NCBI GenBank assembly: GCA_028290285.1
Contig: JAQGKD010000005.1
Coordinates: forward strand, 1-64,000
DNA from: Hyphomicrobiales bacterium
Lineage (GTDB): Bacteria; Pseudomonadota; Alphaproteobacteria; Rhizobiales; Beijerinckiaceae
Direction of reading: 5' to 3'
Length of the DNA: 64,000 nucleotides
Each line of letters opens with the position of its first letter. Position 1 is the first letter of the stretch. This document shows positions 14,340 to 21,906 of this stretch, piece after piece. Below the pieces are notes generated by a model that saw only the letters and a program-made list of their open reading frames with translations, was not told the DNA's origin and searched no databases. Position numbers and translations under genes: made by a program.

Positions 14340-15938
14340 ATGGCCGCACAAGATCTTCACAGCGAAATCGTCAGCCACCACGACAAGGTTCTCATTGTCG
14401 ATTTCGGCTCGCAGGTGACCCAGCTCATTGCCCGCCGCGTGCGCGAGGCGGGGGTCTATTGCGAAATCGCACCCTTCCAGTCGGCCGAAAAGGCCTTCGC
14501 TGAGCTTCAGCCCAAGGCTGTGATCCTGTCGGGCGGTCCCTGCTCGGTGACCGAGGAGGGTTCGCCCCGCGCGCCAAAGGCGATTTTCGACGCCGGCATT
14601 CCGGTGCTGGGCATCTGCTATGGCGAGCAGGTCATGGCCGAGCAACTCGGCGGCAAGGTCGAGGCGGGACATCATCGCGAATTCGGCCGTGCCGACATCG
14701 AGGTGATCGAGAAATCGGCGCTCTTCGATGGCGTCTGGGACACGGGCTGCCGCTATCCCGTCTGGATGAGCCACGGTGACCGCGTCACGCGCCTGCCGGA
14801 CGGTTTCAAGCGCATCGCCATGTCCGAGAACGCGCCGCTCGCCGCCATCGCCGACGAGTCGCGCCGCTATTTCGGCGTGCAATTCCACCTCGAAGTCGTG
14901 CACACGCCAGACGGCGCCCGGCTGATTTCAAATTTCGTGCACAAGGTCGCGGGCCTCAAGCGCGACTGGACGATGGCTGCCTTCCGTCAGGAGGCGGTTG
15001 CCTCCATCCGCGCACAGGTGGGCTCCGCCCGCGTGCTCTGCGGCCTCTCCGGCGGCGTCGATTCCGCTGTCGCGGCCGTGCTCATCCACGAGGCCATCGG
15101 CGATCAGCTGACCTGCGTTTTCGTCGACCACGGCCTGCTGCGCATGGGCGAGGCCCAGGAAGTCGTAAAACTGTTCCGCGACACCTACAACATCCCGCTC
15201 GTCCACGTGGACGCCGAGGAGCTGTTCCTGCGGGAACTCGACGGCGTCAGCGATCCCGAGCAGAAGCGCAAGACCATTGGCCGCCTCTTCATCGACGTCT
15301 TCGACGCCGAGGCCAAGAAGATCGCCTCGGACGGCAAGGGTGCGCCGGAATTCCTGGCGCAGGGCACGCTGTACCCCGATGTGATCGAGAGCGTCTCCTT
15401 CACGGGCGGCCCCTCGGTGACGATCAAGTCGCACCACAATGTCGGCGGTTTGCCCGCGCGCATGAACATGAAGCTGGTCGAGCCGCTGCGCGAACTCTTC
15501 AAGGACGAAGTGCGTGCGCTGGGCCGTGAACTCGGCCTCCCCGAAGCCTTCGTCGGCCGCCACCCCTTCCCGGGGCCGGGTCTCGCGATCCGCATTCCCG
15601 GCGCGATCACGCACGAGAAGCTGGAGATCCTGCGCAAGGCCGACGCCGTCTATCTCGACGAGATCCGCAAGGCAGGCCTCTACGACCAGATCTGGCAGGC
15701 TTTTGCCGTGCTGCTGCCGGTCCGCACAGTCGGCGTGATGGGCGACGGCCGCACCTACGACCACGTCTGCGCGCTGCGCGCCGTGACCTCGGTCGACGGC
15801 ATGACGGCGGATTTCTTCCCCTACGACATGAATTTCCTCGGCCGTGCAGCAACGCGCATCATCAACGAGGTGCGCGGTATTAATCGCGTGGTCTACGACG
15901 TGACCAGCAAGCCGCCGGGAACGATCGAGTGGGAGTAA
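14340..15938 (+). CDS. guaA: GMP synthase (glutamine-hydrolysing)
   Basis: Amidates XMP to GMP. 532 residues. The N-terminal class I glutaminase domain has nucleophile Cys in GICYGEQ (near residue 93) and the His/Glu pair in [11 protein letters not shown]. The ATP pyrophosphatase loop is [12 protein letters not shown] (near 237). The C-terminal dimerisation domain ends [10 protein letters not shown]. The last codons (GAGTGGGAGTAA) are the attachment site of the downstream island. The same core with TGA is found at the island's far end, so integration has kept the protein end intact but replaced the original stop and downstream region. Confidence 0.97.
15927..15936 (+). repeat. attL core (direct repeat copy 1)
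   Basis: GAGTGGGAGT forms the codons Glu-Trp-Glu plus the first base of the stop of guaA. Widened, ATCGAGTGGGAGTAA here matches ATTGAGTGGGAGTGA at the far end in 13 of 15 positions. Confidence 0.85.
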
Positions 15939-15948
15939 TAACGTTGCA

Positions 15949-15974
15949 AAAAGTCCTTATTTTTCAGGGCTTTT
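15949..15974 (+). terminator. guaA terminator supplied by the island
   Basis: AAAAGTCCT and AGGGCTTTT form a 9-bp stem with one G-T pair and an 8-base loop, followed by ATGTTT. It starts 11 bp after the guaA stop and lies inside the island, so the element appears to bring its own terminator for the host gene. Confidence 0.6.
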
Positions 15975-16086
15975 ATGTTTCTAACAACGTTACTAAGGCT
16001 GTTGTAGTTTTTTGAAATGGGCATAAGATCAAGGGCTTCTGCAAGGTGGCAATCACGCCACCTTCGAAGTTTGGTTTCGACTGGAA

Positions 16087-17322
16087 ATGAGTAAGCCCGA
16101 GAGCAAGAAAGACCCGTGGTTCTATGACGTTCATGAGTTCTTTCCGGGAGTAATGATCGGAAAGACAAGAAATTCTGGCGGAAATTGGTATTACCGGTAT
16201 TGGGTTACCGGCGAAGGAAAATATCAATCCAAGTCTCTGAAGACGAAGAACAGGGCGGTTGCGTTGGCGGCGGCAGAAGAAATCTATTTCGATACTCGGA
16301 ATAGACCGCGCAAAGGTGAGAAAATATTTTCGAATACTGTCGATGAGCTTTGTGACTGGTATTTGGAAGAGCGCCGACGTGATGTTGGTAAGAAGCTTAT
16401 AACGCCGGGCCGTTTGGTTACGATTAGAAGTCAACTTGTGGCGTTACGGAAATTTCTGGGGCCCAAGGTCAAGGTGTCGCAGATCACTGCGCAGAAATTC
16501 CTCGGATATACAGAATTCCGCCTAGCTAAAGCGTCGCTTCATACGATCAAAAACGAAAGATCGACCATTTCTAGTGTATTCAAATTGGCTCTGAAGCACG
16601 GGAAAATTTCGCATGAGCAGCTCCCGGAATGGGAAAAGCTCAAAAGGATGGAGGAACCCCGCCGTGACTCGTTCACCGTGCTAGAGTATCAGCAACTATA
16701 TCGTCAAATCCGTTATTGGGCGGTAGAAGGTGAAGGTGACGATGAGAAGTTCTTACGAGAGTTGATCCGGGATTTTGTGCTTATTTGTGCAAATACTGGG
16801 CTGAGATACGGCGAGGCACGAAGTTTGCGATGGAGGCATGTCCGTAACATACATATCGAAAAAGCTGCACCAAAGACGGTGGCGGTCGAGCTTTTTCTTA
16901 CGTCTGATATCACTAAGACTGACAAAAGCAGGACTGTTGTTGGATTGGGTGGGCAACATTTCCAGCGTCGGAAGAAAAGTGCGGTTTTTACGAAGCCAGA
17001 CGACTTTGTTTTCTGTGTGCGGGAAGGCATTGAGTTGTCTAAGAGGCAACTCTATTCGCAATGGAAGAGTATGATGGATTTTGTGGGACTTGGGGATAGA
17101 AAACGGCTTACTTACTACAGCCTCCGGCATACATATGCGACATTTCGTATCGTTAGGGGAAAAGTCCATCCGCAAGTGTTGGCTCAAAACATGGGATGTT
17201 CAGTCAATTTTCTCGAGAAGCATTACGCCCACGTCAAGACAGAAGAAATGATTCGAGAATTGACTAGAACGGATTCAAAAGACGAAGGATTATACGATTT
17301 CCTGCAAATAAATTTGGAGTAA
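16087..17322 (+). CDS. Tyrosine site-specific integrase
   Basis: 411-residue integrase that would insert and excise the island at guaA. An N-terminal arm-binding region (YYRYWVTGEGKYQSKSLKTK) is followed by a SAM-like core-binding domain (about 85-180) and the catalytic domain. Catalytic residues seen are Arg240 in TGLRYGEA, Arg347 in YYSLRHTYAT, and the nucleophile Tyr380 in EKHYAHV. The usual first His of box II is Tyr344, and the late His/Trp is Cys in NMGCS, variations seen in alphaproteobacterial phage-type integrases. Low GC matches the rest of the island. It is intact and probably functional. Confidence 0.92.
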   Translation: MSKPESKKDPWFYDVHEFFPGVMIGKTRNSGGNWYYRYWVTGEGKYQSKSLKTKNRAVALAAAEEIYFDTRNRPRKGEKIFSNTVDELCDWYLEERRRDVGKKLITPGRLVTIRSQLVALRKFLGPKVKVSQITAQKFLGYTEFRLAKASLHTIKNERSTISSVFKLALKHGKISHEQLPEWEKLKRMEEPRRDSFTVLEYQQLYRQIRYWAVEGEGDDEKFLRELIRDFVLICANTGLRYGEARSLRWRHVRNIHIEKAAPKTVAVELFLTSDITKTDKSRTVVGLGGQHFQRRKKSAVFTKPDDFVFCVREGIELSKRQLYSQWKSMMDFVGLGDRKRLTYYSLRHTYATFRIVRGKVHPQVLAQNMGCSVNFLEKHYAHVKTEEMIRELTRTDSKDEGLYDFLQINLE

Positions 17323-17365
17323 TTGGAGATAATAAAAAATAACCAGCACGATTCGAGGGTTTGTT

Positions 17366-18100
17366 ATGCAGATAATACAATCTAGATACACAAGAAAACG
17401 GCTAAGCGCTTTGAGTAAGCAAAAGCTCGTTAGCTATGTACTTGCTGGGCAACTTAGTAATGAGCTTGGGATGCTTTCCAACAACCTTCTTGCGTCACAG
17501 AACACACTGAAAAACAGCACATTTACTCCGGAAGAACACGCAGCAATCACCCAGATCGTATTTTACCTAAAGCTATTGGCTGGTAAATTACATGAAGGTG
17601 GCCGTTTCATAATAGGTCACGTTGCGCCACTGGTCATTGGAAAGCACAAATCAGCTCCAGAAAGTATTAGGCAAGAATATATAAAGCTTTGTAAAATAAA
17701 AAATGGAGCAGCGAGTAAATTTGCTAGGCTCAGGAAAGAATTCGCCTTCCACATCGACGGAAATCCCATAATTGAAAATGTTGAAAAGCTAGATGAAGAT
17801 GAGACATTATTTGATTATATAAGTCTTGAAAACTCATCTAACAACCTTTTCTTTTCGTCTGAAGTTATTTCATTCCATGCTTTGCTTGGGGTAACTCCGG
17901 AAGGCACTCAAGATGCGATTATAAAACTGATTGATGAAGTAATGTCTAATGTTGTTGCGTATAAGGCATTTTTATCTTCGCATCGTATTTGGATCGAAAC
18001 CGAGTTTCTCGGGGATAATTACGAACTTGAACCGTTTGAAAGGCAGAACGCACCTAAGCGGGTCGGTTCATTCATGCCGTTCTTCCATGAGGTTGATTAG
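17366..18100 (+). CDS. Unknown island protein with a HEPN-like RxxxxxH motif
   Basis: 244 residues, mostly alpha-helical by composition, no signal peptide or membrane segment. GAGGG upstream supports the ATG at 17366. I do not recognise a family. One local pattern, RKEFAFH (Arg123 to His129), resembles the R-x4-6-H active site of HEPN ribonucleases, which are common in defence and toxin systems, but one motif is weak evidence. The C-terminal part is acidic and ends PFFHEVD. It overlaps the convergent serine recombinase by 4 bp. It is the most likely cargo gene of the island. Confidence 0.6.
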   Translation: MQIIQSRYTRKRLSALSKQKLVSYVLAGQLSNELGMLSNNLLASQNTLKNSTFTPEEHAAITQIVFYLKLLAGKLHEGGRFIIGHVAPLVIGKHKSAPESIRQEYIKLCKIKNGAASKFARLRKEFAFHIDGNPIIENVEKLDEDETLFDYISLENSSNNLFFSSEVISFHALLGVTPEGTQDAIIKLIDEVMSNVVAYKAFLSSHRIWIETEFLGDNYELEPFERQNAPKRVGSFMPFFHEVD

Positions 18101-18648
18101 GCTTGCGCCAGCGCCCGATAGACGCTTGCCACCGATATCCCGATCTTTGAAGCGATATCCATCGGCTTCACACCCTTCGCCCGCAGGTCCAAGACTTCCC
18201 CGGCCCGCAGTCGTGCTGTCGGCTTGCGGCCCTTGTATCGGCCTTCTGCCTTGGCTTTCTTGATGCCTTCACGTTGTCTTTCCAGAAGCAATTCCCGTTC
18301 GAACTGCGCAACCGACGACAATACGTTCAGCATCAGGGTGCCGGTGGGTGTGGATGTGTCGAGGTTCATTGCCAACACCCGTAAGCCGACCCCCTTCTTG
18401 GCCAGCCGGTCGGATATGGCGATGAAATCGGCCACAGAACGGCACAGGCGGTCGAGTTTTGTTACGACCAGCACATCCCCATTCCGGACGAACTCTATGG
18501 CCTGTTGAAGCTCTGGACGGCTCCTGGCCACCGCTGAAACTTGTTCTTGATAGATAGGGTCACAGCCCGCCTTCTTCAGTTCAGCAAGTTGGGCTTCATA
18601 TCCGGCAATCTGGTCCGCAGTGCTTGTTCTGGCATAACCGATCATCAT
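18097..18648 (-). CDS. Serine recombinase (resolvase/invertase family)
   Basis: 183 residues. The N-terminal catalytic domain begins IGYARTSTADQ with nucleophile Ser9. YQEQVSAVARSRPEL, VTKLDRLCRS and SSVAQFERELLLERQREG are the usual resolvase blocks. A C-terminal helix-turn-helix (PMDIASKIGISVASVYRAL) binds DNA. The ATG at 18648 has an AGGAAG site 7 bases upstream; a TTG start 7 codons earlier is less likely. GC content is higher than in the neighbouring unknown genes, so it may have come separately. It could resolve or invert island DNA. Confidence 0.88.
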   Translation of the reverse strand: MMIGYARTSTADQIAGYEAQLAELKKAGCDPIYQEQVSAVARSRPELQQAIEFVRNGDVLVVTKLDRLCRSVADFIAISDRLAKKGVGLRVLAMNLDTSTPTGTLMLNVLSSVAQFERELLLERQREGIKKAKAEGRYKGRKPTARLRAGEVLDLRAKGVKPMDIASKIGISVASVYRALAQA

Positions 18649-18698
18649 GGCGTGCTTCCTGCTTATCAATAGAATCTAAGATGCTGTGACAAGATTCG

Positions 18699-18777
18699 CA
18701 AGAGGGAGCTTTTTTGACCCTCTTGAGAAGCATTCCGCCCGTCGCACTGGGGTAATCCCTAGTGCGAGGGGGGGCGG
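18699..18777. repeat. Two adjacent hairpins upstream of the serine recombinase
   Basis: CAAGAGGG (18699-18706) pairs with CCCTCTTG (18718-18725). Immediately next, CCGCCC-N-TCGCACT pairs with AGTGCGA-N4-GGGCGG across 18735-18777, with extra pairing inside. They lie between the recombinase start and its decayed relative. Paired symmetrical sites here could be recombinase binding sites (res-like) or terminators. Confidence 0.45.
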
Positions 18778-18780
18778 TCT

Positions 18781-19016
18781 GTGCCGAATTCGGAACCAAT
18801 TTGCGAAAAGAACGGCAGGCCGACGGAAAGGCTAAGGCTAAGGCTAAGGCTAAGGCTAAGGCAAGCGGCGTTTACAAGGGCCGCAAGCCGTCAATCAAGG
18901 TCGATGCCGTCAGAGACCTTCAATCAAAGGGCAAGGGTGCTACCGAAATCGCCATGGCGCTGGGAATTGGTCGTGCCAGCGTTTATCGGGTGCTTGGTCT
19001 CGAAAATCGGCCATGA
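18781..19016 (+). pseudogene. Serine recombinase remnant (C-terminal part only)
   Basis: The plus-strand frame keeps only the end of a resolvase: NLRKERQADGKAKAK, then SGVYKGRKPSIK, then the helix-turn-helix GATEIAMALGIGRASVYRVL. The whole catalytic domain is missing. In intact relatives the linker reads like ERQxEGIAKAKAxGVYKGR; here it is stretched by five GCTAAG hexamers (18831-18860) into an Ala-Lys run. A GTG at 18781 or ATG upstream could start a 70-85 aa DNA-binding peptide, but it looks like decay. It differs in sequence from the intact recombinase next door, so it is not a simple duplicate. Confidence 0.75.
18831..18860 (+). repeat. Tandem hexanucleotide (GCTAAG)5
   Basis: Five exact copies of GCTAAG coding for alternating Ala-Lys inside the recombinase remnant. 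It could have expanded by slippage of the normal AKAKA linker. Confidence 0.9.
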
Positions 19017-19150
19017 GCCCCAAAGGCAGCACACCCGCCAGAGAACGACTTGACCTTTGCTGTCAAACAACGCATTTTTTGAATTGAAGGTTACGGCTTT
19101 AGAAACTTTCAATTCGGACTTACGGACAGCTTTTATGCGGAGGCGTTGTG

Positions 19151-19534
19151 ATGATGGATTTTTATTTGGAGCTGGGATGCGGCGCATCTGGCGAGAAGTT
19201 CCTGCGGGTGCATGTTGCGCAGATCATGGCGTCCAGTCTCGACGACGCCATCTGGAAAGCGCAGAACGTCATCGCAAGCGTTTCAGAATTCATTTCGCCG
19301 ACGCTCGTTCTCTTGTTCAATGGTTCGGCGATGCTTGTCTGGTCGCAAGTTCGCTACAGGGCGGACACTGGCGACGGTCTAAATCGTCGACGAATTCCTG
19401 TAACACTCGGGGAATGCAAAATGTACAGGCAACGAGTTGCTGGCTCGCAAATCCTCATCCAACAGTTCAGGAAAATTCCCTTCTTTATCAAAGACAGTCC
19501 CTTGTCGCCCGATCCTAGAATATTATTGGAATAA
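19151..19534 (+). CDS. Hypothetical island protein (127 aa)
   Basis: The ATG at 19151 has GGAGG 7 bases upstream. The sequence starts MMDFYLELGCG and contains a hydrophobic stretch (ISPTLVLLFNGSAMLVW) that might be buried or membrane-associated. No recognised family. An overlapping frame at 19057-19518 looks worse (Arg/Cys-rich, no ribosome site). It lies between the recombinase remnant and the HUH protein. Confidence 0.5.
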   Translation: MMDFYLELGCGASGEKFLRVHVAQIMASSLDDAIWKAQNVIASVSEFISPTLVLLFNGSAMLVWSQVRYRADTGDGLNRRRIPVTLGECKMYRQRVAGSQILIQQFRKIPFFIKDSPLSPDPRILLE

Positions 19535-19558
19535 AAAAATATTTTATCGAAATTCAAA

Positions 19559-19567
19559 GGGGGGGGG
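19559..19567 (+). repeat. Nine-G homopolymer before the HUH gene
   Basis: A run of nine G ends in the G of the GTG start codon of the HUH gene, so the run provides or blocks its ribosome site. Such tracts are prone to slippage. Confidence 0.7.
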
Positions 19568-20085
19568 TGAAAGTAATACTAAATAGATATAGGAAAAATG
19601 ATTGGGGTTTAGTCTTGAATAAATTCGATATAGGATTGGCGTGGATTGCATTCTTGGAACTTCAGGACTGGACACATATGCTTACGCTCGGGTTTGATCA
19701 GTATGATCATTTGGGAAAGAGTCTATCTCTTTATCCTGAACAGGAAAGGCATATTTATATGCTTCGTCGGACGGAGATTTATCTGAAGAGATTGCATCCA
19801 AGACTGAACGGTAGAAGCAATAAGCCGTTGACTCATTTCGGGTCTGCCGAAGCTTTTACCAAAGGTTATTGCCCAACTCATTTCCATTTTCATGTTTTGC
19901 TTGCACTAGATGAAAGCCAAACCGGATACTTCGATAAGGTGGGCGAAAAATTATGGGCGCAGCTCAACAGGATTGGTCAATATAAATTCCATAATCGTCG
20001 GGTTGACTGTCGTTTTGCAGCGGCCAAATACGTGACGAAACAAATTCATAGCGATGGTATATTTCTTAGTTGCTTGCCTGAGTAG
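19567..20085 (+). CDS. HUH-endonuclease (rolling-circle Rep-like) protein
   Basis: 172 residues with the three ordered motifs of Y1 HUH nickases. Motif 1 is THMLTLGF (36-43). Motif 2 is HFHFHVLLAL, with the metal-binding pair His107/His109. Motif 3 is AAKYVTKQ, with candidate nucleophile Tyr155 and Lys158 (YxxK). Such proteins nick one strand to start rolling-circle replication or transfer. It is short and ends soon after motif 3, so there is no helicase. The GTG start at the end of a G run is the only start that includes the N-terminus. Strongly AT-rich. A terminator follows. It could be a replication initiator or a relaxase of the island; the exact family is unknown to me. Confidence 0.72.
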   Translation: MKVILNRYRKNDWGLVLNKFDIGLAWIAFLELQDWTHMLTLGFDQYDHLGKSLSLYPEQERHIYMLRRTEIYLKRLHPRLNGRSNKPLTHFGSAEAFTKGYCPTHFHFHVLLALDESQTGYFDKVGEKLWAQLNRIGQYKFHNRRVDCRFAAAKYVTKQIHSDGIFLSCLPE

Positions 20086-20116
20086 GGCATAACTTCCGCC
20101 AGAATCTCGACGAAGA

Positions 20117-20129
20117 TCGCATTATGCGA
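20117..20129. repeat. 13-bp palindrome TCGCAT-T-ATGCGA
   Basis: A perfect palindrome with a one-base centre in the gap after the HUH gene, next to an AT-rich tract (about 20137-20146). It could be an operator of the downstream ribbon-helix-helix protein or part of a nick/origin region. Confidence 0.4.
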
Positions 20130-20163
20130 CTCTAGCTAATATATATCGTGCCTAATTATCAGT

Positions 20164-20192
20164 AAAGACCGTGATTTACCATCACGGCCTTT
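20164..20192 (+). terminator. Intrinsic terminator after the HUH gene
   Basis: CCGTGAT/ATCACGG form a 7-bp stem with the loop TTACC, extended after one mismatch by AAAG/CTTT, followed by GTTCT. Confidence 0.75.
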
Positions 20193-20213
20193 GTTCTACT
20201 ATGGAAAAAACGA

Positions 20214-20393
20214 ATGAAAGAAAAAAGAACAGAAATAATGACATTCAGATTATTCACGGAGGAACGTGAAAGAATACAAAATCACGTCAAGATGACGGAT
20301 ACTACATTCTCAAAACTAGCCCGTGCGGCCATTCGAAAGGAAATTGAACAAAATGAACGCAATCAAGTCAAAACTAATCATGAAGCTGAATGA
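20214..20393 (+). CDS. Ribbon-helix-helix DNA-binding protein (59 aa)
   Basis: A short gene in the island. It begins MKEKRTEIMTFRLFTEERER and continues with FSKLARAAIRKEIEQ. The layout (basic beta strand, then two amphipathic helices with a conserved S-x-x-A-R-A-A-I end) matches ribbon-helix-helix proteins such as MobC-like relaxosome factors and antitoxins. No strong ribosome site is seen (AAAAAACGA upstream). Placed 128 bp after the HUH nickase and just past its terminator, it could bind the nick site or repress the island. Its 3' end overlaps the next gene by 41 bp in another frame. Confidence 0.65.
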   Translation: MKEKRTEIMTFRLFTEERERIQNHVKMTDTTFSKLARAAIRKEIEQNERNQVKTNHEAE

Positions 20394-20691
20394 AGCTGCC
20401 GAATTTTACCTGTCACGCTCCGACAACGACGATGATGCGGAATTCGATTTTCGATACATCCTCTTGGCAAAGGAATTTGATGCGGCATCAGCCGCAGCCC
20501 GAAGGGCCCAAAGCGACGATGAAATCCCCCACCGGCATCACATAATTGAATTGCTCGTCCTACTATCGACCGATTACGAGAAGCAAGGGTGGGTTTTCCA
20601 AGGCATGGACGTGGATGTGCTGGTTGATGAGCTATGTGGATACGGGGTCAGTGCGATCAAGACCGGCGACGTTGACACGCAGGCTCAGTGA
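20353..20691 (+). CDS. Hypothetical island protein (112 aa)
   Basis: Acidic helical protein starting MNAIKSKLIMKLNEAAEF, with a run of Asp (DNDDDAEFDF). No recognised domain. AAAGGAAA lies about 12 bases before the ATG at 20353; a GTG 10 codons upstream is possible. It overlaps the ribbon-helix-helix gene and so is likely translated with it. Its 3' end overlaps the convergent secreted-protein gene by 7 bp. Confidence 0.55.
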   Translation: MNAIKSKLIMKLNEAAEFYLSRSDNDDDAEFDFRYILLAKEFDAASAAARRAQSDDEIPHRHHIIELLVLLSTDYEKQGWVFQGMDVDVLVDELCGYGVSAIKTGDVDTQAQ

Positions 20692-21080
20692 CAGGAGCCA
20701 GTGTTTGTGTCGCCAAGGCGCACATCTGTGAGAAAAAACGGATATCCCTTGATCCATGTCTGAATGTTCAAGACATATCGCAGTGATTGGCGGTCGTCTG
20801 CGCCTGTCAATATCCATGAATTCTGATGATCGCCCTTCCGGCTTACGCTCCACACTATGCCATCGTAGCGAAATTCACCGATCACCTGTCCTGTTGATCT
20901 ATCGAACCTGAATTTCCAACTCCTTGCGTCCGGGTTTTGCCCGTTCAGGCCGCCCTTCAGATACTCGGCATTTTCCGTGAAGGTGTAGACGGTCTTGATA
21001 TCGCAGACCATGTAGTCCGCCGCCATCGCCCGGCACGGTGACAGGACTGTGGTGAGACCGATCAGCCATAGGTGGCGCAT
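20685..21080 (-). CDS. Secreted hypothetical protein (131 aa)
   Basis: From the ATG at 21080 the protein has a signal peptide (MRHLWLIGLTTVL..., cleavage near AMA-AD) and a mature beta-rich domain of about 110 residues, with Cys near both ends of the mature part (MVCDIK and GSCH). That suggests a periplasmic disulphide. No family recognised. An in-frame extension to 21197 adds a Ser/Thr/Ala-rich tail without signal character and is not favoured. Last gene of the island before the right attachment site. Confidence 0.55.
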   Translation of the reverse strand: MRHLWLIGLTTVLSPCRAMAADYMVCDIKTVYTFTENAEYLKGGLNGQNPDARSWKFRFDRSTGQVIGEFRYDGIVWSVSRKGDHQNSWILTGADDRQSLRYVLNIQTWIKGYPFFLTDVRLGDTNTGSCH

Positions 21081-21344
21081 TTCATGGCGTTTGCTTTCAG
21101 AATTGGTAGAACAAGGAGCAGAGGCGGCGGCAGAAGTGCTGTTCGGGGTGGTAGCTGAGTCGTAGCGGTACGCCATTAGGACATTACTGGCTTGCATCTG
21201 TAACCCGGCGTAGACCGTTACGCACTGAATTCATTCACGTTTTTGCCTGTGGTGTAGTCAGTGGCTGGGTATCCTTTGTTACTAAGAAATTACTAACAGA
21301 AAAAAAACGCAATAAATTCAGACACTTATGGGTTGGTGATTATT

Positions 21345-21354
21345 GAGTGGGAGT
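21345..21354 (+). repeat. attR core (direct repeat copy 2)
   Basis: GAGTGGGAGT followed by GA reproduces a guaA end with a TGA stop; GC-rich chromosomal sequence resumes immediately after. TTACTAA motifs at 21279-21285 and 21290-21296 lie about 50-66 bp inward and a third at 15990-15996 lies about 54 bp inward from attL, so they may be integrase arm sites. Confidence 0.85.
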
Positions 21355-21786: not shown

Positions 21787-21906
21787 CCTGAACTCGGCAC
21801 GTTCACCGCAGGCCGTCTCCCAGTCTGCGAATACACGCATGACGAGCAATTTCATTAACCCTCCACCCGTATTGTCCTCGCCATTGATTTGATCCTTTGG
21901 TGCCCG

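Follow-up and report, generated by a model that had tools for sequence, protein, structure and literature searches.

A candidate Y1 HUH Rep-type nickase on a very small integrative element at the 3′ end of guaA

What is a protein of 172 residues with the motifs of a HUH endonuclease doing on a small, low-GC island inserted at the end of guaA? An earlier note on the 64-kb stretch of DNA analyzed here (the window) read it as a Y1 HUH nickase and proposed that it serves replication after excision or mobilization of an integrative element. The island is a ~5.4-kb low-GC element (15927–21354) that adjoins the guaA 3′ end, encodes an integrase and has two copies of a core, GAGTGGGAGT. The relevant features of the window are the following.

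14340..15938, + strand: guaA (GMP synthase), host gene of the insertion site; GATase and GMP_synt_C Pfam domains; ends IEWE-stop
15927..15936, + strand: att core GAGTGGGAGT, left copy, within the guaA end
16087..17322, + strand: tyrosine integrase, 411 aa; PF00589 E 1.1e-9, phrog_1 E 2e-44
17366..18100, + strand: ORF of 244 aa; no Pfam, PHROG, NCBIfam or PADLOC match
18097..18669, − strand: serine resolvase/invertase, 190 aa; PF00239 E 1.1e-42
19148..19534, + strand: ORF of 128 aa; no Pfam, PHROG, NCBIfam or PADLOC match
19567..20085, + strand: candidate Y1 HUH Rep-type nickase, 172 aa; motifs, sub-cut-off PF23343 match, weak microvirus Rep matches
20164..20192: hairpin between the HUH and RHH genes; candidate terminator or nick-site hairpin
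20214..20393, + strand: ribbon-helix-helix (RHH) protein, 59 aa; PF21983 NikA-like, 27.1 bits (cut-off 27)
20323..20691, + strand: ORF of at most 122 aa, overlapping the RHH gene; no Pfam, PHROG, NCBIfam or PADLOC match
20685..21197, − strand: ORF of 170 aa; no Pfam or NCBIfam match, weak single matches in PHROGs (E 0.25) and PADLOC (E 0.023)
21345..21354, + strand: att core GAGTGGGAGT, right copy; ATTGAGTGGGAGTGA against the guaA end, 13 of 15 bases

The integrase adjoining guaA, the att duplication and the low GC content support the reading of the island as an integrative element, in agreement with the earlier note. The core occurs twice in the whole 64-kb window, at 15927 and 21345, which are the two ends of the element, and the GC content drops from 0.641 outside the copies to 0.469 between them. 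At the right border, ATTGAGTGGGAGTGA is identical to the guaA end at 13 of 15 bases, the runner-up 15-mer between 16100 and 30000 reaching 11. The stop codon following the core is TAA or TAG in 8 of the 9 guaA loci that bear a related integrase (the exception is L031), whereas TGA closes 23 of 28 congener guaA ends without one (L085, cut after TA, being scored as not TGA) and also the window's right copy; this contrast is expected if the element carries its own guaA end and displaces that of the host rightward. Two congeners, L076 and L078, have a relative of the window gene at 21889 (58% and 60% identity) at ~1.7 and 3.6 kb past guaA, respectively; a match to the first 0.6 kb rightward of attR was absent from all 31 fetched congener stretches. 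Its own integrase and att sites are features that the element has in common with integrative and mobilizable elements (IMEs); a search for iterons or an origin within it found none. Near the intact resolvase (18097–18669), on the opposite strand, 18762–19016 holds the truncated C-terminus of a second resolvase with 5.8 copies of AAGGCT.

The HUH-motif ORF (19567–20085) begins with GTG and encodes THMLTLGF at residues 36–43, HFHFH at 105–109 and AAKYVTK at 152–158, with the tyrosine at 155, as the earlier note had described. Motif I is followed by HxH and then YxxK, the arrangement of Y1 HUH Reps, and the HxH pair falls on H105/H107 in some alignments and on H107/H109 in others. In canonical conjugative relaxases (MOB families), the tyrosine precedes the HUH motif, whereas Reps have HxH before the tyrosine; the 172-aa protein has the latter order and does not qualify as a canonical relaxase. 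Its reading frame runs through 188 codons without a stop at a GC content of 41%; a given frame would do so by chance with a probability of ~7e-6. A strict three-motif pattern, drawn up after the sequence had been seen, recurred in none of 20,000 shuffled versions of the protein and a loose one in 270; when 1,413 six-frame ORFs of 120–300 aa were screened, the strict pattern retrieved 4 rows, 3 of them copies of a protein from another guaA island (L017), and the loose pattern 6.

The start of the ORF is uncertain. A run of nine G (19559–19567) overlaps the GTG, and a start at the TTG at 19615, preceded by GGGG, would shorten the protein to 156 aa, as long as the HUH-motif ORF of a congener (L084); we lean toward the TTG. 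A frameshift at the G run was rejected because the upstream ORF ends at 19534, ahead of it. The possible TTG start is flanked by two copies of GATATAGGA (19581–19594 and 19622–19635, 41 bp apart), which may be an operator; short two-copy repeats often arise by chance.

The sole Pfam match of the protein at E ≤ 1 is to PF23343 (REP_ORF2-G2P), a family of replication proteins of single-stranded DNA (ssDNA) phages, with E 0.011 and 16.5 bits, below the cut-off of 27.8; PHROGs, NCBIfam and PADLOC yielded no match, and a PF23343 search over the whole source genome gave nothing at E ≤ 1. The earlier note had looked to Rep or relaxase profiles for support: the Rep side received it in this sub-cut-off form, and no relaxase family in Pfam, PHROGs or NCBIfam was matched. 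A tblastn search of phages at E ≤ 10 returned six records, of which four are microvirus replication initiators (E 0.2–3), H1 and H3 among them being apparent near copies of each other, and two are from Stenotrophomonas phages (E 4–5). The alignment with microvirus L113 spans all three motifs and that with L114 spans HFH and YVTK. In hhalign, the protein scored 89% against a profile of six microvirus Reps, over residues 70–141 only and with three of the six picked as its own weak matches; against the other three alone it scored 3%, yet in register around W, IG and Y. Two other window proteins scored 2% and 0.1% against the six-Rep profile. Structure prediction, among the checks suggested by the earlier note, was run twice with AlphaFold, with the protein alone or with three microvirus rows added as input; the mean pLDDT values of 33 and 38 were both too poor for use. 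An IS200/IS605 or RAYT Y1 transposase was rejected, with no Y1 transposase Pfam match at E ≤ 1. On the strength of its sequence, the protein is very probably a HUH enzyme; the motifs, the weak similarity to PF23343 and microvirus Reps, and the HUH-type ORFs of two other guaA islands (below) support its reading as a Y1 HUH nickase, as the earlier note had proposed, and as one of the Rep type.

All searches left the 172-aa protein an orphan. The order search retrieved the window's own genome only (1 of 397), plasmids gave no match at E 0.01 and a single one at E 10, within a ribosomal protein gene, and neither phages (E 0.01), viral contigs nor PDB sequences contained a match. A close-relative scan of 84,980 genome species produced 16 pattern matches, none of which was confirmed. 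In the genus, 6 of 51 genomes matched at E ≤ 1, the five besides the window's own at E 0.11–0.65. The class search matched 5 of 385 genomes at E ≤ 0.02; apart from the window's own, the matches had E values of 9e-4 to 0.0185, and three of these four contain internal stops. Of the weak matches L002–L010, the alignments of L002, L004, L006 and L008 were inspected and judged to be chance. Four loci came out of viral contigs searched with a degenerate motif, none recognizable as a HUH protein in the sequence seen.

A related integrase directly follows guaA in nine islands, namely that of the window and L017, L030, L031, L032, L084, L086, L103 and L119. These derive from integrase searches (2 of 199 and 5 of 317 genomes in the order and 5 of 289 in the class, each count including the window's own; 4 loci in genome contigs) and from a guaA search of the genus, which matched 40 of 51 genomes, own included, and from which downstream DNA of 31 congeners was taken. 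The sequence of L030, L086 and L119 stops within ~0.3 kb past the integrase, leaving six readable islands, window included. Three of the six (window, L017 and L084) contain a HUH-motif ORF; the motif pattern found none in the fetched stretches of L031 and L032 or in ~1.8 kb of L103. The HUH ORF of L084, from the same genus as the window, scores 29.0 bits against PF23343, above the cut-off, and that of L017 is recognized by its motifs alone, with no Pfam match and 5% against the microvirus profile. Neither has relatives in plasmids, phages or viral contigs, and that of L017 has none in its family either (3 genomes). L017 holds an integrase, the HUH-motif ORF, an RHH gene and two small ORFs within 2.95 kb between its att copies. 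RHH genes were seen in the window, in L017 (RHH_1 at 17.5 bits, short of the cut-off) and, by eye, in L031, with ORFs of L032, L084 and L103 scanned partly or not at all, so that absence there is not firm. Of the other guaA islands, for which the earlier note had suggested a search, L017 has both genes; the pair is not general, being present in two of the six; BLAST gave no alignment between the RHH proteins of the window and L017.

Integrase relatives L033, L120 and L121 were excluded from the guaA count, with no guaA in the stretch. Integrase queries A1 and A2 found 0 and 5 loci in viral contigs, plasmids gave none at 1e-20, and query A3 found four loci in genome contigs, with no guaA in the available stretches.

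A profile built from the window and L084 proteins matched 4 of 51 genomes in the genus at E ≤ 0.05, including the window's and L084's own; G438 matched at E 0.02, and G443 contributed two further proteins, L110 and L111. L110 scores 24.9 bits against PF23343, below the cut-off, and lies beside a DUF6641 gene, as in L084; L111 has no Pfam match. Both lie on short contigs without guaA or integrase matches and were excluded as guaA islands. Profiles built from L084, L110 and L111 but not from the window protein failed to retrieve the latter among 5,571 frames at E ≤ 20, and hhalign of the window protein against L084/L110 gave 0.1%. These proteins thus have motifs and setting in common without evident close ancestry; the module has either been swapped or diverged fast. 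On the 3′ side of its HUH gene, at a distance of ~0.3 kb, L084 carries iteron-like 10-bp direct repeats (L084:152–213; unit near TTTGGTGAGG, approximately five copies), a candidate origin. DUF6641 (L084, L110) and DUF6626 (L032; below cut-off in L084) recur on these islands.

The RHH gene lies 128 bp downstream of the HUH ORF, as the earlier note had stated, whereas the intrinsic terminator that the note placed between them was not confirmed: the T tract of the hairpin is poor, and the region has 7 terminator-like sites compared with 5.8 ± 2.3 in shuffles. The 128-bp gap folds, as DNA, with z = −2.15, and 6 of 200 shuffles fold equally well; as a terminator, the hairpin is not above chance. 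The RHH protein passes the PF21983 NikA-like cut-off by 0.1 bit, which favors mobilization, and scores 25.2 bits against DUF6290, below its cut-off. The repressor family phrog_876 is matched by the RHH proteins of the window (E 0.21), L017 (E 0.0021) and L031 (E 9e-4); together with the CopG-RepB precedent, these matches favor repression, and by a weak preference the protein is most likely a CopG/Arc-like repressor. A toxin–antitoxin role was rejected (RelB 19.4 vs 50 bits, DUF6290 below cut-off, no adjoining toxin family).

Circle replication is the main use that we favor for the HUH protein, with somewhat better than even confidence. We propose, about as firmly, a minimal integrative element in which a Y1 Rep-type nickase drives rolling-circle copying of the excised circle. 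The tyrosine integrase would recombine the GAGTGGGAGT cores, inserting the element and excising it as a circle, as the att duplication and GIsul2 suggest. A metal ion would be bound by two of the HFHFH histidines, and Y155 would nick a single circle strand and remain attached to the 5′ end thus formed, after which host polymerase and helicase could copy the nicked circle. Such copying would prevent loss of the excised form and amplify it ahead of reintegration or passive transfer, and the RHH protein may act as the CopG/Arc-like repressor of the system.

Of the two functions named by the earlier note, replication agrees with the best reading of the protein as a Rep-type nickase, and transfer is less supported, given the Rep order of the motifs and the lack of a relaxase match. 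A role as transfer relaxase is possible, and less likely than that of a circle-replicating Rep. The protein would then be a non-canonical relaxase of an IME, nicking an oriT on the excised circle and traveling with the strand through a helper's conjugation machinery, with the RHH protein as a MobC/NikA-like accessory. The NikA-like match fits this reading, as do the streptococcal IMEs, of which 118 of 144 are reported to encode (PMC5704250) putative relaxases resembling rolling-circle replication (RCR) initiators, 21 of them PHA00330. However, no relaxase or coupling protein was matched among the scanned island ORFs, an RHH gene accompanies two of the three HUH-bearing guaA islands as far as seen, and the RHH protein also weakly matches repressor models.

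That the motifs are coincidental and the protein is no HUH enzyme appears quite unlikely: the profile scores are sub-threshold, the AlphaFold models are poor and the congener profile fails to retrieve the protein, yet the motifs, their order, PF23343 as the sole Pfam match, the in-register microvirus Rep matches and the island context concur. Slightly less likely still, in our estimation, is a satellite-type Rep, with the element copied by rolling circle and packaged by an ssDNA phage. The best similarities are to microvirus and G2P-type initiators and L017 fits its integrase, HUH-motif ORF, RHH gene and two small ORFs into 2.95 kb, but no phage structural or packaging gene was matched in the window element, phages and viral contigs gave no match at the usual thresholds, and no helper phage was seen. 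A broader generalization is that guaA hosts minimal integrative elements (2.95 and 5.4 kb where both att copies were seen) combining one integrase lineage with differing small HUH initiators, some of ssDNA-phage type; such elements would rank with the smallest integrative elements capable of self-replication, or else be satellites packaged by ssDNA phages. We regard this as speculative and rather improbable.

The preferred reading, a circle-replicating Rep, can be set against several known systems. The window protein shares with PF23343 and microvirus initiators motif I (TLTF-like), HxH and YxxK in the same order, as well as weak profile and tblastn similarity, but it falls below the family cut-off, resides on an integrase-bearing element rather than a phage and, at 172 aa, is half the size of the microvirus Reps compared (303–345 aa). 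Non-canonical streptococcal IMEs (PHA00330, Rep_trans and Rep_2) are likewise small and combine an integrase with an RCR-initiator-like HUH protein, and guaA is the target of some streptococcal IMEs, the passages concerned not stating whether the PHA00330 elements are the guaA-targeting ones (PMC5704250, PMC5357655). In view of these IMEs with RCR-initiator-like relaxases, and of the streptococcal IMEs that target guaA, the window element is of a kind already known; it differs from them in lacking a coupling-protein match and in belonging to another bacterial group. GIsul2 has GAGTGGGA at the 3′ end of guaA as its reported integration site, but is ~15 kb long and carries RepA/RepC, transfer and resistance genes, with no small HUH Rep mentioned in the part of the source that describes it (PMC9376610). 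CopG-RepB of pMV158 likewise combines an RHH protein and an RCR initiator, both of them small, and CopG represses the copG-repB operon (PMC5703833). However, the window protein has no Rep_2 match and the pair falls outside that module; copG precedes the initiator gene in pMV158, the RHH gene follows the HUH gene in the window, and in L017 the RHH gene comes first, with both genes on one strand.

Rep-type nickases have been described on integrative elements before; the element of the window is very small and has almost no recognizable relatives, and small guaA elements of this kind were not found described in the titles and abstract openings of the open-access papers retrieved. If the preferred reading is right, very small elements integrated at guaA also use rolling-circle initiators of the ssDNA-phage type, and a unit of 3–5 kb comprising integrase, Rep and repressor would offer a simple system for how an integrated element keeps its excised circle.

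Two further observations concern the guaA locus in the genus. Contigs break less than 200 bp past the guaA stop in 7 of 33 congener genomes (loci L074–L104; 7 of the 40 guaA matches having been set aside for a truncated guaA or an incomplete match), compared with 0.42 expected from contig counts and with 0 of 31 on the upstream side (Fisher p 0.011); the breaks may stem from mixed occupied and empty sites or from repeated islands. Second guaA 3′ ends with their own att core lie downstream of guaA in L091 (~1594–1686) and L097 (~625–822; guaA-forward coordinates) and are perhaps traces of other insertions.
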